DNA of 64,000 nucleotides from Campylobacter sp. W0018 (GTDB lineage Bacteria; Campylobacterota; Campylobacteria; Campylobacterales; Campylobacteraceae). Position numbers and translations under genes: made by a program. Below the pieces are notes generated by a model, which searched no databases, was not told the DNA's origin, and was given only the letters and a program-made list of their open reading frames with translations. The stretch spans positions 30,517 through 94,516 of the forward strand of contig JACHTQ010000005.1 of the NCBI GenBank assembly GCA_020135845.1, read 5' to 3'. Positions 38,027 to 42,839 of the stretch are shown one piece after another. How positions within the stretch are numbered: position 1 is the first letter of the stretch; each line of letters begins with the position of its first letter.

Positions 38027-39190
38027 TTAATGTAAAGCTTCGTTGAGCTTGACTGCTTTTTTATTTAAAGCAACGATCATCACTCCCGTTGTAGAGTCTT
38101 GACGGAAATGAAGTCCGTTTAAGCCTTGAAGTTCTAAACCTTTGTATATTTCTTTATCAAAAGTGAAATTTGGATTAAGCTTTGCGAGCTCTTGTGCATC
38201 TTTTAATAAAAATTTAGTTCCCTCTAGCACTGCAATTCCTGCATCAACGATACAATTATCGCCCAAAGGAACGCCGGTAACAGAATTAGCGCCTAAAAGA
38301 CAAGCTTTACCTATGCTGATCGCATTTCCACTTGTGCCGCTTAAAACTCCTAATATAGAAGCTCCTCCGCCTATATCCGATCCTTCTCCTACGACTACAC
38401 TTGAGCTTATGCGACCCTCTACCATACAGGCTCCCGTTGTTCCTGCATTGAAATTCACATAAGAAGCACCTGGCATAATCGTTGTTCCCGCTGCCAAAGA
38501 AGCACCCATTCTTACCTTTGAACTTTCTAAAATTCTTGTATTATCTTCAGGTATGATATGCGCTAAAAATCTTGGGAATTTATCAACAAAATCAATTTTT
38601 GGATATTGATTAGCCATCTTTAAACGCATTTCATTTTCTCTTAAATAATCAAGCTCTATAGGTCTATCATCACTCCAAGCAACATTGCTTAAAAGCCCAA
38701 AGGCACCATTTAGATTGATACTTCTTAAAGGCACTTTTTTTGTAGAAAGCAAATAAAGTTTAAGATAAACGCTTTCGACACTCAAAGGCTCTTTATCTTC
38801 AAAAAGACATACAAAAGCAAATTCATCGTCTTTAAATTTCTCTTTAATCAATTTTAATAAGTCGATATTTTTATGCCCCTCTTCTTCTAAAAAAGGTTTG
38901 AAGCAAGATAAAGCAAATTCAATATCTTCCATTTTTAAAACTTGAGTGAATTCGCTCGCATTAAAATCGACCTCGATTCCCCTTTGCATAAAAGATTCAA
39001 GTATGATCGCAGCTGAACTAAAATTCTGCTCATAATTTACCAAAGCAAAACTCGCTTGTAAAATTTTATTTTTATTGATTTGTCCTCTATCAAGTCTTGC
39101 TATACCAAAAGCTTTAGGCTGTTTATAGCCACTTTTTTGTTCTATTTGTTTGATTAAAAGTAAAAAATCTTCTTTAGTATTCACCAACAT
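38027..39190 (-). CDS. dapD: Tetrahydrodipicolinate N-succinyltransferase DapD
   Basis: A 387-residue enzyme of the long DapD type found in campylobacters. The N-terminal half is family-specific; the C-terminal half is a left-handed beta-helix of hexapeptide repeats, including RMGASLAAGTTIMPGASYV, VEGRISSSVVVGEGSDIGGG and ISIGKACLLGANSVTG. It succinylates tetrahydrodipicolinate in the diaminopimelate/lysine route, the same pathway as dapF. Single gene, convergent with rplQ. Confidence 0.92.
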   Translation of the reverse strand: MLVNTKEDFLLLIKQIEQKSGYKQPKAFGIARLDRGQINKNKILQASFALVNYEQNFSSAAIILESFMQRGIEVDFNASEFTQVLKMEDIEFALSCFKPFLEEEGHKNIDLLKLIKEKFKDDEFAFVCLFEDKEPLSVESVYLKLYLLSTKKVPLRSINLNGAFGLLSNVAWSDDRPIELDYLRENEMRLKMANQYPKIDFVDKFPRFLAHIIPEDNTRILESSKVRMGASLAAGTTIMPGASYVNFNAGTTGACMVEGRISSSVVVGEGSDIGGGASILGVLSGTSGNAISIGKACLLGANSVTGVPLGDNCIVDAGIAVLEGTKFLLKDAQELAKLNPNFTFDKEIYKGLELQGLNGLHFRQDSTTGVMIVALNKKAVKLNEALH

Positions 39191-39419
39191 TTTTTTCCTT
39201 TGTTGTTTTGTTATTTGAATAAATGATTATATCAAATAAAACTTGAAATCTTATTTTAAATTTAAAACTAAAAAATTTATAAACAATAATTAAATAATAA
39301 ATATTTTTAAACTTAAACTAAATTGCCATAAATAACAATGTTAAAATTTTTCTCATTATTTTTTCCTTGATAAAAAATATTGATTTGCAAATCTTTCAAA
39401 ATCATAACATAAAGTATTA

Positions 39420-39428
39420 CCCCCCCCC
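39420..39428 (+). repeat. Poly-C tract (C9) in a non-coding interval
   Basis: Nine consecutive C residues, followed by GT and a T run, in otherwise AT-rich sequence. Long C/G runs are the usual phase-variable repeats of C. jejuni. Here it is 230 bases before dapD and 260 before the relaxase gene, outside any reading frame. Confidence 0.8.
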
Positions 39429-39564
39429 GTTTTTTTGCGACTTAATTTAATCTTAAAGTAATTATTTTATAGGAATTTAAATGCAATTTTTATTTTTAAA
39501 AAAAACTTAATTAAGTTTTATTTAAGTAGATTTTTTGCAAAAAAATCTTTTTTAACGTTTAAAG

Positions 39565-39620
39565 CCCTATAAAATAGGGATTTGAGTTAAAAAACAGCCA
39601 CTATAAAGGGTTATCCTGCC
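39565..39620 (+). other. oriT: Candidate origin of transfer (oriT) with IncP-like nic site
   Basis: TATCCTGC at 39612-39619 matches the nic consensus YATCCTG/Y of IncP-type MOBP relaxases as I remember it; cleavage would be after 39618. A hairpin with 6-bp arms (39565-39570 and 39574-39579) lies upstream, as oriT sites often have. The relaxase gene starts 70 bases downstream. No experiment or search supports it yet. Confidence 0.5.
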
Positions 39621-39688
39621 TCTATACAAGTTTTATATTTTTTACTATAATTTTTTCAATTTCAAATTACAAATTTTTAAGAAAAAAA

Positions 39689-41278
39689 ATGCAAAAAAAT
39701 ATAGAAGAATTACTCGAAGAAATAAAAAAAGTTAGAAAAGCAAGTTCTGTTATAAAAGATAAATTTGATAGAAATAAAATATTTAATCATTATGTCAGTT
39801 CTTATTCAATAAAAAACAATGTTAATAATTTTAATAAATCCTCTTTTTCTAAACAAGTTGTCGTAAAACTTTTAAGTAATTTATCAAGTGCTGGAGCGAA
39901 AAGAGCGATAAACTATATCTTAAAAAATAATGATACTCCTTATTTGATTAATGAAAAAGGGGAAGAGGTTTTAGCTAAAGAAGTTTTAAAAGATTGGAAT
40001 AATGATTTTTCTAAATCAGAAAATGCAAAAGATGCTTGGCATTTAATGTTTTCTATAAAAGAAAGTGCTACTCCTAAAAATCTTGAAATATTAAAAAAAT
40101 CTGTTCAGCGAGTTATGGATAATAATTTTCTAGGTTATAAGTATGTTATGGTTTTACATACCCATCAAAATAATCCACACGCCCACATAGTTTTAAATAA
40201 AAGAAATATATTGACAAAAAAGAAAATTCATTTCAATAAAAAAGAAGATATAAAAGAGTTTTGGGACGATGTTAGAAATAATTTTAGTATGACTTTAAAT
40301 AACAAAGGTTTGCGTTATCATAATCATTCCATTTTAGAAAAGGATTTAAAGAAAGAATGCGAAAGAATTAAAAGAAATTTATACCTTGATGAGTATGAAA
40401 CCAAAAATGATTTAAATGAAATTTTATTAAATAGTATCAAGAGAGAAAATATTAAAATTGAAAAGAAAAAAAGTAGAATTGATTTCTTTTCTGAAGAGAA
40501 TAAAATTTTAAAAGACGAAAGAAAAAATTTGCTTAATCTTTTTAATCAATATAAAAAGAAAAATAATAAAAAATTTTATAAAATTGGGCGAGATTTAAAG
40601 CTTAATAATAAAAAAATAAATGAGAACGAAAAAATTATTTTAAATGAGATAAAAGAGTTAAAAGAAATTTATCCAAAAATTGAAATTTTAAACAAAGAAT
40701 TAAATAAATTAACTTATGAAAAAATAATCGATGTAAAAAGATTAGAAACGTTTTCAGATAGTATAAAAAATGTAAAAATTTCATCAAAAAAAGATTATCA
40801 AGAATTCTTAAAAGTTAGAAGTTCTATTTCTAAAAATAATCAAAATTTAGATGATGTAATTAAAAAGAATTTGGAGGCAAATTTAATCTCTTTAAGTCTT
40901 TTTAACGGCAAAAAACAAAATATTTTTAATTTAAATAATAAAATACAAAGTTTAGATAATGCAATTTATTTGCTTAAAAAATCAAATTCTGAAGTATGGG
41001 AATACGAAAACTACCTTAAAACTTTAGAAAGCAATAAGGACTTCTTAAAAGATAATATTTCCTTGAGATTTAAAAATTTAAAATTAGAACTTTCAAATAA
41101 AAGCACTAAAAAGATTAATCCTTTTTTGATTAAAGAGTATCAGAAAGGTTGTGAAATTTTAAATATCAAAGATGATTTAAATATAATCAATAAAATTAAT
41201 AATTCTAGTTATTTTGGTAAGGTTAATAATAAGCAAAATGAAAATTTAAATAATTTAAAGAATAGAAGTTATGATTAA
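39689..41278 (+). CDS. MOBP-type relaxase / mobilisation protein
   Basis: A 529-residue, very Lys/Asn-rich protein. The N-terminal domain has Tyr76 in AKRAINYILKN as a likely nicking Tyr. Residues 157-170 read HTHQNNPHAHIVLN, which matches the metal-binding three-His motif of MOBP relaxases (H-x-D/H-x-x-x-PHxH). The remaining 350 residues are mostly coiled coil with no domain I recognise. Such proteins nick plasmid or integrative element DNA at oriT and lead the strand into a recipient. No integrase, MobC-like gene or secretion genes are in the window, so transfer would need help in trans. Its stop lies in a bidirectional hairpin. The frame is intact. Confidence 0.8.
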   Translation: MQKNIEELLEEIKKVRKASSVIKDKFDRNKIFNHYVSSYSIKNNVNNFNKSSFSKQVVVKLLSNLSSAGAKRAINYILKNNDTPYLINEKGEEVLAKEVLKDWNNDFSKSENAKDAWHLMFSIKESATPKNLEILKKSVQRVMDNNFLGYKYVMVLHTHQNNPHAHIVLNKRNILTKKKIHFNKKEDIKEFWDDVRNNFSMTLNNKGLRYHNHSILEKDLKKECERIKRNLYLDEYETKNDLNEILLNSIKRENIKIEKKKSRIDFFSEENKILKDERKNLLNLFNQYKKKNNKKFYKIGRDLKLNNKKINENEKIILNEIKELKEIYPKIEILNKELNKLTYEKIIDVKRLETFSDSIKNVKISSKKDYQEFLKVRSSISKNNQNLDDVIKKNLEANLISLSLFNGKKQNIFNLNNKIQSLDNAIYLLKKSNSEVWEYENYLKTLESNKDFLKDNISLRFKNLKLELSNKSTKKINPFLIKEYQKGCEILNIKDDLNIINKINNSSYFGKVNNKQNENLNNLKNRSYD

Positions 41279-41297
41279 TGCGGATTATCCGCATTAA
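41275..41297. terminator. Bidirectional terminator between relaxase and lipoprotein genes
   Basis: A perfect 11-bp inverted repeat (41275-41285 with 41287-41297) spans both stop codons (41276-41278 plus strand; 41294-41296 minus strand). Confidence 0.7.
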
Positions 41298-41689
41298 TTA
41301 AGGTATTTGCTATCTTGTGTTTCAGCAGGAACACAATTTATAGAATTGTTTTTTTCTTTATAGCAGTCAATACCGATTATCTTGTATTTATTTTCATTAG
41401 TCTTAATTAAAAAATATTTACTATAATCAGAAAGTGGCTTTTCTTGACTTTGCATTGTATAAAATTGAACAATTTTATTTCTAATTTTAGAATCAACATG
41501 ACTTAAGTTTTTAATTGAGATATAATCATAAATTTCACAATTTGGATATTTACTTTTAATTTTTTCAATTGCTGGATTAAAAAAAGGAGAGTTATCCTTG
41601 TTTTCTGCTTTTGTTAAGCTATCGCCACCGCACCCCGCTAAAAAACTGATTAACCCTAAGGCTAAAATTCCTTTTAAAATTTTTTTCAT
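41294..41689 (-). CDS. Small putative lipoprotein beside the relaxase
   Basis: A 131-residue protein with a lipoprotein signal: LGLISFLAGC, cysteine at about residue 20. The mature part is hydrophilic with a few Cys (NCEIYDY, IDCYKEK, INCVPAE) and no domain I recognise. It converges on the relaxase gene with a shared terminator. Small lipoproteins on mobilisable elements sometimes provide entry exclusion; that is only a guess here. It could equally be a chromosomal envelope protein unrelated to the insert. Confidence 0.55.
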   Translation of the reverse strand: MKKILKGILALGLISFLAGCGGDSLTKAENKDNSPFFNPAIEKIKSKYPNCEIYDYISIKNLSHVDSKIRNKIVQFYTMQSQEKPLSDYSKYFLIKTNENKYKIIGIDCYKEKNNSINCVPAETQDSKYLN

Positions 41690-41745
41690 TTTTTTCCTTT
41701 CTTAAAATGTTTTAAATTATAGCTTTTTAAGCTTAAAAAAATGTT

Positions 41746-41768
41746 TTTAAGGTTTAACAAACCTTAAA
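41746..41768 (-). terminator. Terminator after galM
   Basis: A perfect 10-bp stem (41746-41755 with 41759-41768) lies 58 bases after the galM stop and is followed on the minus strand by a T-rich run. Confidence 0.55.
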
Positions 41769-41825
41769 GCAATAAAACACCATTTTTCCATATTTTTATC
41801 AAAAATAATCTCCAAACTTACATCT

Positions 41826-42839
41826 TTAATCATTTTTAAATGTAAATGATATATTGTAGCTTTGCTTACTATGACGTGGCAATACAATATCACCAAAATT
41901 TTCATGATGAATCGCATCAGGTAAAGTCTGTGCCTCTAATGCAATGCCTTCATTTTTATTTGCCAAAGCGCCTTTATCTCGGCTAAATGAAATGTTTTGC
42001 CCTTCGATCTTTTCAGGCGTATAAACAACAAGTCCATTACGATCAGAATGCACGATAATTTGACGCTTGCTTTCTTTATCTTTTAAGATGGCAGCTAAAT
42101 TTGTTTTAAGCACATAAGCTGTATCTAGTCCTTTAATTTCTTTAAGCACGGATTCTACATTTTTAAAATGACGAAAATCATAAGGCGTGTTATCAACAGC
42201 GAGAAATTTTCCAGTAGGGATTAAATACTCATCAGTTTCTAAAATATGATCGCTATTGATTTGTAATTCATGCGTTGTCAAATCGCGACGATTGCTCAGA
42301 TTAAAATAAACATGGCACGTTGGATTAAACAGAGTATCTTCTTCGCCACCTATTGCGCTATATACAATGCTTACTTTATTTTGATTATCCAAGGTATAAA
42401 CAATACTAGCTTGTATCTCTCCAAAAAAGCCATCCATACTTTCATCGATCTTTTTTTGAAAAGTCACACTTACACTATTTTCATCAACCGAAGTTGAATA
42501 TTCCCAATTCCAAGTTGAAAAGCCATGTGGCCCACCATGAAGAGTATTACCATGATCATTTTGTGGCAATTTATAATGTTTATAAGATGCGTTTTTGATC
42601 CTTCCAGCAACCCTGCCGATTGATTTGCAAATATTTTGAGGATTTGAGTAATAATCGTTAATGTTATCAAAACTTAATAATAAATTTTGATGCTCTTTAT
42701 CCTTAGTTGGAACTAAAAACTGATGCCAAATTGCCCCCATACTAAGGCAGGAAATTTCTACATTATTATCATTGATCAAACGAATTCTCGTTACTTTTTC
42801 ATCATTATACTCGCCAAATGTTTCTTGCAATATTTTCAT
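41826..42839 (-). CDS. galM: Aldose 1-epimerase (galactose/glucose mutarotase) GalM
   Basis: A 337-residue mutarotase that converts alpha and beta anomers of hexoses. Recognised segments are GRVAGRIKNA near residue 73, NTLHGGPHGFSTWNWEY near residue 97, the catalytic His in NPTCHVYFNLS near residue 173, and the catalytic Glu in GIALEAQTLPDA near residue 300. I do not know this gene from NCTC 11168, which does not catabolise glucose; some C. coli and subsp. doylei strains do carry a glucose pathway. No sugar transporter or kinase is next to it. It may have arrived with the insert or as an older acquisition. Base use looks like its neighbours. Confidence 0.9.
   Translation of the reverse strand: MKILQETFGEYNDEKVTRIRLINDNNVEISCLSMGAIWHQFLVPTKDKEHQNLLLSFDNINDYYSNPQNICKSIGRVAGRIKNASYKHYKLPQNDHGNTLHGGPHGFSTWNWEYSTSVDENSVSVTFQKKIDESMDGFFGEIQASIVYTLDNQNKVSIVYSAIGGEEDTLFNPTCHVYFNLSNRRDLTTHELQINSDHILETDEYLIPTGKFLAVDNTPYDFRHFKNVESVLKEIKGLDTAYVLKTNLAAILKDKESKRQIIVHSDRNGLVVYTPEKIEGQNISFSRDKGALANKNEGIALEAQTLPDAIHHENFGDIVLPRHSKQSYNISFTFKND

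Follow-up and report, generated by a model that had tools for sequence, protein, structure and literature searches.

Campylobacter is known for genetic exchange by natural transformation. Conjugative relaxases act through a tyrosine and a cluster of histidines that have catalytic roles, and in the IncP plasmid RP4 the relaxase TraI nicks according to the rule YATCCTG/Y (the slash marks the cut) and stays on the 5' end, the nic core TATCCTG/C being preceded by an inverted repeat. Relaxase genes also occur on the chromosomes of a relative, Helicobacter pylori, where VirD2-type relaxases lie beside tfs3/tfs4 and where rlx1 is another example; PMC3447787 cites a report that transfer of RP4-oriT plasmids depended on chromosomal rlx1, and states that the chromosomal relaxases of H. 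pylori P12 were not needed for pHel12 transfer.

The locus described here lies between dapD and galM in a 64,000-nucleotide stretch (the window) of a Campylobacter draft genome of 1.51 Mb in 77 contigs. It resembles the pVir-family plasmids, with which it shares a relaxase (58-59% identical), the oriT core, the hairpin, a lipoprotein gene and their order, but these plasmids also carry VirB genes, a toprim-domain gene and more genes, and the chromosomal piece corresponds to their mobilisation end only. It shares with RP4 the nic core and the inverted repeat before it, although its relaxase is only distantly related to TraI, and it differs from H. pylori P12 in that the relaxases of that strain stand beside chromosomal type IV secretion systems (T4SSs), whereas a T4SS was not found in the draft genome of the window. 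Among the matches listed, titles and abstract openings of the literature on Campylobacter mobilisation, pVir, conjugation of chromosomal genes, integrated plasmids and orphan or Hfr relaxases describe no such cassette. We consider it probable that about 2.4 kb of a pVir-family plasmid, or of a related integrated element, was caught between dapD and galM with a relaxase that most likely still nicks.

The segment between dapD and galM and its plasmid relatives

The first-pass annotation had located a chromosomal relaxase between dapD and galM, and Pfam bears out both gene names. The features of the locus are as follows.

38027-39190, minus strand: dapD
39433-39537, plus strand: left non-coding stretch, 75-76% DNA identity to two pVir-family plasmids
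39548-39594, plus strand: oriT hairpin (inverted repeat), from DNA fold and pair-preserving changes; ends 17 bases before the nic core
39597-39625, plus strand: conserved nic box GCCACTATAAAGGGTTATCCTGCCTCTAT, identical in relatives
39638-39651, plus strand: promoter-like box TTTTTTACTATAAT after nic, identical in the window, L016, L017 and L006
39689-41278, plus strand: relaxase of pVir-plasmid type, 529 aa, ATG start; from Pfam, plasmid relatives, alignment and dN/dS
41294-41689, minus strand: lipoprotein-like protein, 131 aa, fast-evolving, with relatives at the same place
41714-41798, plus strand: right non-coding end of the plasmid-like segment, 75-81% DNA identity to two plasmids
41826-42839, minus strand: galM

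The dapD-galM interval is AT-rich (GC 21% at 39001-41000 versus 24-36% in 2-kb windows outside 39001-42000) and contains two ORFs of at least 60 aa, one of 529 aa on the plus strand and one of 131 aa on the minus strand; these, the relaxase and lipoprotein genes, are the only such ORFs in the inserted stretch, about 39322-41825. The interval first assigned to the unit, 39565-41278, begins inside the hairpin and stops short of the lipoprotein gene.

The profile search on which the first-pass annotation had staked its relaxase call returned Pfam Relaxase PF03432 above the gathering score (E 1.2e-10, 42.2 bits, cut-off 24.6). Since this local match spans residues 101-192 only, the candidate catalytic Tyr76 of that annotation rests on alignment, where it holds: Tyr76, His157, His159, His164 and His166 are invariant in all 11 aligned proteins (the window's own and ten relatives), which diverge down to 25% identity, the histidines lying in HTHQNNPHAHIV (residues 157-168). 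The MOBP assignment is tentative. The protein appears to be MOBP-like, and the two fetched plasmids that carry relatives of it are typed MOBP in PLSDB, but no NCBIfam profile matched the window protein above its cut-off, and neither MobP1 nor TraI_MobP matched it at E 1; the relaxase of the C. novaezeelandiae plasmid scores 44.6 bits with MobP1 (cut-off 200) and 22 with TraI_MobP (cut-off 250). Profile comparison with solved structures listed 56 sequences (E up to 1), none of them a relaxase, and their best-matching stretches fall in the C-terminal two thirds, at profile position 216 or later. No relatives were confirmed in viral contigs, and none were found in phage records.

Plasmids gave abundant relatives. 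By tblastn, 55 of 72,556 plasmid records matched the relaxase, and 33 of them, all from Campylobacter, cover 90% of it at 58-59% identity; two records of 81-176 among these 33 are taken, by their length, for pVir. A blastn search with 39200-41750 matched 37 plasmid records (33 Campylobacter, 2 Aliarcobacter, 2 Helicobacter), and in the 30 records listed the DNA similarity already begins before the relaxase gene, in 29 of them at 39502 and in the other at 39489. A search for similar oriT sequences in Campylobacter plasmids, which had been proposed as a check, was positive: a 106-base oriT query matched 37 records, of which 33, every one from Campylobacter, cover at least 80% of it, and the remaining four give short matches with E 0.9 or worse.

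Two plasmids, from C. novaezeelandiae and C. coli, were fetched for comparison; both are of the pVir family and listed in PLSDB as MPF_T and rep_cluster_1502 in addition to MOBP. In both, VirB genes are followed by two hypothetical genes, a non-coding stretch, the relaxase gene and a convergent lipoprotein-like ORF, and the window matches this order from 39433 to 41798. The left non-coding stretch corresponds to the DNA that separates the relaxase gene from the VirB-side genes in the plasmids, with similarity reaching 39517 for the C. novaezeelandiae plasmid and 39537 for the C. coli plasmid; weaker copies of it occur elsewhere in these plasmids. Taken together, the pVir-type relaxase, the conserved nic and hairpin and the lipoprotein gene at the same place indicate a plasmid fragment between dapD and galM. 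The first-pass annotation had seen a self-contained oriT-relaxase unit; a relaxase with its site upstream is indeed present, but the locus is more aptly seen as a fragment of a pVir-like plasmid that became stranded in the chromosome.

The candidate origin of transfer

The nic-like TATCCTGC occurs once in the window, at 39612-39619 on the plus strand. With 1.11 occurrences expected per window by chance, this 8-mer alone proves nothing, and the claim of an IncP-like nic motif just upstream of the relaxase gains its strength from conservation: in all 11 loci that have a full-length gene, the motif stands 47-201 bases ahead of the relaxase start, and it also precedes a broken C. taeniopygiae gene and a relic in genome G018. 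In locus L023 the search pattern also matches at a second, unrelated site. The longer GGGTTATCCTGC occurs once in the 1.51-Mb genome (reversed control, 0); when up to two mismatches are allowed, 1.3 occurrences per window are expected. The nic box GCCACTATAAAGGGTTATCCTGCCTCTAT is identical in the window, C. estrildidarum, C. taeniopygiae, the two pVir-family plasmids and the G018 relic. The locus thus has the nic core and the preceding inverted repeat of an IncP/RP4-type oriT, and by the RP4 rule the cut is predicted between G39618 and C39619. The box TTTTTTACTATAAT that follows, varied in the remaining sequences of the alignment, is perhaps the relaxase promoter.

When up to 3 mismatches were allowed, a longer oriT pattern matched 7 of the 120 family genomes sampled. 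It is exact in G000, G017 (C. estrildidarum) and G018, the C. taeniopygiae genome G029 being outside this sample; the matches in G120, G136, G162 and G165, with 3 mismatches, were discarded as chance because a motif scan found no relaxase ORF in their 3-kb loci.

The hairpin noted upstream of nic is confirmed by folding. An 80-mer of the window folds as DNA at -11.4 kcal/mol versus -5.67 +/- 1.9 for shuffles (z -3.0), with 3 of 200 shuffles folding as well; z reaches -5.0 in C. estrildidarum, and a hairpin precedes the nic core in all 8 sequences folded (8 of 13 nic loci; z -2.3 to -5.6). The pairing is preserved across relatives: the three innermost pairs of the outer stem, AAC/GTT in the chromosomal copies, become GTG/CAC in the two plasmids (pair-preserving changes being counted on ungapped 47-mers). 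The inner part keeps the register of the window only in the chromosomal copies, the plasmids pairing in other registers. Genomes G035 and G028 have a second inverted repeat directly before the nic core, which the window lacks or has only weakly. By eye, the hairpin of the G018 relic looks degenerate.

Conservation between window and C. estrildidarum was assessed over 39547-39656, where 3 of 110 positions differ, all of them in the hairpin and all pair-keeping (a base-pair swap at 39566/39578 and a change from T-G to C-G at 39560); the nic part has no difference in 46 positions. The two adjoining intergenic stretches differ at 35 of 323 positions, more than oriT (Fisher p 0.010). Taken singly, the dapD-side stretch (27/208) differs from oriT at p 0.002, and the comparison with the lipoprotein-galM stretch (8/115) is not significant (p 0.22). 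When the synonymous rate served as the reference, a binomial test seemed to give a much stronger result than the intergenic comparison, but it is given no weight, because at this locus substitutions accumulate more slowly in intergenic DNA than at synonymous positions.

Chromosomal copies, selection and transfer genes

Matches to the relaxase protein were found in 12 of the 99 genomes searched, its own included, 9 of them within the 49 genomes of the genus. The same dapD-galM insertion is intact in C. estrildidarum, with a relaxase of 527 aa, and is present in C. taeniopygiae, where the relaxase is broken into pieces of 273 and 249 aa. A tree built from residues 1-330 groups the three chromosomal copies (94/98, just under the starred level), and these with two pVir-type plasmid relaxases in a group of five (97/100). 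All 49 genus genomes have dapD; 30 loci were kept, and among the 29 compared with that of the window, 20 have mrp within about 260 bases of dapD and no galM, the rest being the two sister insertions, one genome (G021) in which dapD and galM adjoin and the site is empty, one (G041) described next, and five with only dapD matched. In G041, possibly C. hepaticus, the dapD-galM site (L055:5815-10149) holds Cas9 (cas_Csn1, 691 bits), Cas1 and Cas2, which suggests an insertion-prone site.

Related pieces lie elsewhere on Campylobacter chromosomes. A separate fragment in G018, beside a tRNA-Leu (L018:8150-9371), retains an intact nic box, the lipoprotein and the C-terminal part of the relaxase, whose catalytic half is missing. 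In G016 a 1.76-Mb contig carries another chromosomal relaxase; the 20 kb fetched there matched none of the plasmid VirB queries, and the VirB4 of this genome lies on another contig. A pVir-like integrated element of G035 (L020), on a 1.93-Mb contig near tRNA-Ala and tRNA-Ile, resembles the window in its nic core and in a relaxase 31% identical, and differs from it in the presence of VirB4, VirB8, VirB9 and VirB10 relatives, a VirB11-like ATPase, a ParA-like ATPase and a phage (tyrosine) integrase. Such pieces thus seem to have been acquired by Campylobacter chromosomes repeatedly.

Between window and C. estrildidarum the relaxase gene has dS 0.358, dN 0.066 and a ratio of 0.184 (525 codons). 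The ratio for the same species pair is 0.047 for dapD, 0.050 for galM and 0.119 for ispDF, and 0.363 (dN 0.43) for the lipoprotein; that of the relaxase pair from the plasmids is 0.161, so that the constraint on the chromosomal gene is much like that on the plasmid gene.

Three transfer families (PF03135, PF10412, PF02534) and one relaxase family (PF03432) were sought in the genome of the window. It has a single PF03432 match and, in the draft, no match to VirB4 (PF03135) or the coupling protein (PF10412, PF02534), and thus not the T4SS and coupling protein of its own that would mark an integrative conjugative element; being a draft of 77 contigs, the assembly could lack a plasmid. Among its ORFs of at least 60 aa, the inserted stretch has no integrase, the mark of an integrative element. 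Given that none of the three was found, the segment should not transfer unaided and would need a helper. VirB4 and coupling-protein genes are present in C. estrildidarum, C. taeniopygiae and G021, on separate contigs in the latter two. Campylobacter conjugative plasmids cover 94% of the first 20 kb of the C. estrildidarum contig at 88% identity; the 10.5-kb C. taeniopygiae contig is 58-59% covered at 87-88% among the matches listed, and no record covers 80%. We take both contigs to be pTet-like. These genes might help mobilise the cassette in the sister genomes, and the plasmids matching the C. estrildidarum contig carry a MobP1 relaxase of their own. On that genome's contig C15 (L072:1980), a CTATCCTGT site lies about 600 bases upstream of a relaxase-like ORF, possibly the nic site of its other transfer system.

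Competing readings of the cassette

According to the reading that we hold probable, an ancestor of this Campylobacter group would have captured about 2.4 kb, comprising oriT, its own relaxase and the lipoprotein gene, from a pVir-family conjugative plasmid or a related integrated element. The relaxase most likely still recognises the oriT hairpin; it would nick the plus strand at TATCCTG/C through Tyr76 and, like TraI, stay on the 5' end. The relaxosome could then be taken up by a helper plasmid, and the first DNA to cross would be the relaxase gene, ahead of galM, mrp and ispDF. The sequence comparisons explain the origin of the segment well; its predicted state is most likely nicking-competent but helper-dependent, and mobilisation of the neighbouring chromosomal DNA, as first proposed, is plausible.

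A lesser but real chance is that the segment is a dying plasmid relic, captured by chance, without present function and being lost. Both genes are frameshifted in C. taeniopygiae. From dapD start to relaxase start the window has 498 bases, C. estrildidarum 1082 and C. taeniopygiae 1304, so that 0.6-0.8 kb has been lost from the window left of the hairpin, and in the alignment this gap falls at a TTTTTTGCAAAAAA repeat, of which C. estrildidarum has an imperfect version. This loss and the frameshifts count against a working cassette, as do the non-significant comparison of oriT with the lipoprotein-galM stretch and the outcomes of the structure-profile and NCBIfam searches; the transfer apparatus not found in the draft genome and the similar G018 fragment without the catalytic half also fit decay. 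Decay is harder to reconcile with intact genes of 529 and 527 aa in two species at a dN/dS of 0.18, and with a nic region unchanged between them. In the same left flank, the window has a run of nine C at 39420-39428 followed by a G and a T run; the sister species have an opposite arm with a G run further right of the C run, which the window lacks, and the C. novaezeelandiae and C. coli plasmids have a ACCGACATTTTGCG / CGCAAAATGTCGGT repeat where the window has the C run.

It is unlikely that the cassette is kept for another task, with no transfer, the lipoprotein excluding pVir-like plasmids or the relaxase and hairpin acting in regulation. The lipoprotein, assigned from a signal sequence read by eye, does accompany the relaxase in two plasmids, three species (one with a broken gene) and G018; it occupies the same place in both fetched plasmids (34% identical to that of the window), and relatives from the two plasmids, C. 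estrildidarum and G018 share 31-49% identity over 106-124 residues. The plasmid ORFs (L014:8029-8424 and L015:6987-7379) are missing from the gene tables shown for both records, PLSDB tables being known to be incomplete. Its rapid evolution and a weak EexN match (E 0.019, 14.9 bits) would suit an entry-exclusion protein, which is possible, but the match is below the cut-off of 33, and the C. estrildidarum copy gives none at E 0.1. Such a task would also leave the kept nic core unexplained.

An integrative mobilisable element still moving as a unit is very improbable. The empty site in G021 and the G035 relative with VirB genes and a tyrosine integrase speak for it, but only the relaxase and lipoprotein ORFs occupy the inserted stretch and the direct repeats found around the segment include no convincing attachment pair. 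The best repeat spanning it (39341-39362 / 41674-41695, 91% over 22 bases) coincides at either copy with the beginning of a signal-sequence gene. At 39325-39365 on the minus strand there is an apparent start of a further signal-sequence gene resembling that of the lipoprotein gene, probably a gene remnant.

A bolder form of the capture reading, in which the chromosomes of these Campylobacter species are natural Hfr-like donors, a resident conjugative plasmid exports from the dapD-galM oriT-relaxase and selection keeps the pair, seems to us quite unlikely. If a kept chromosomal oriT-relaxase pair does exist, it would give chromosomal genes a directed, polar route of transfer when a helper plasmid is present. 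The comparison also yields a testable oriT for the pVir plasmid family, made up of the hairpin and the nic core.
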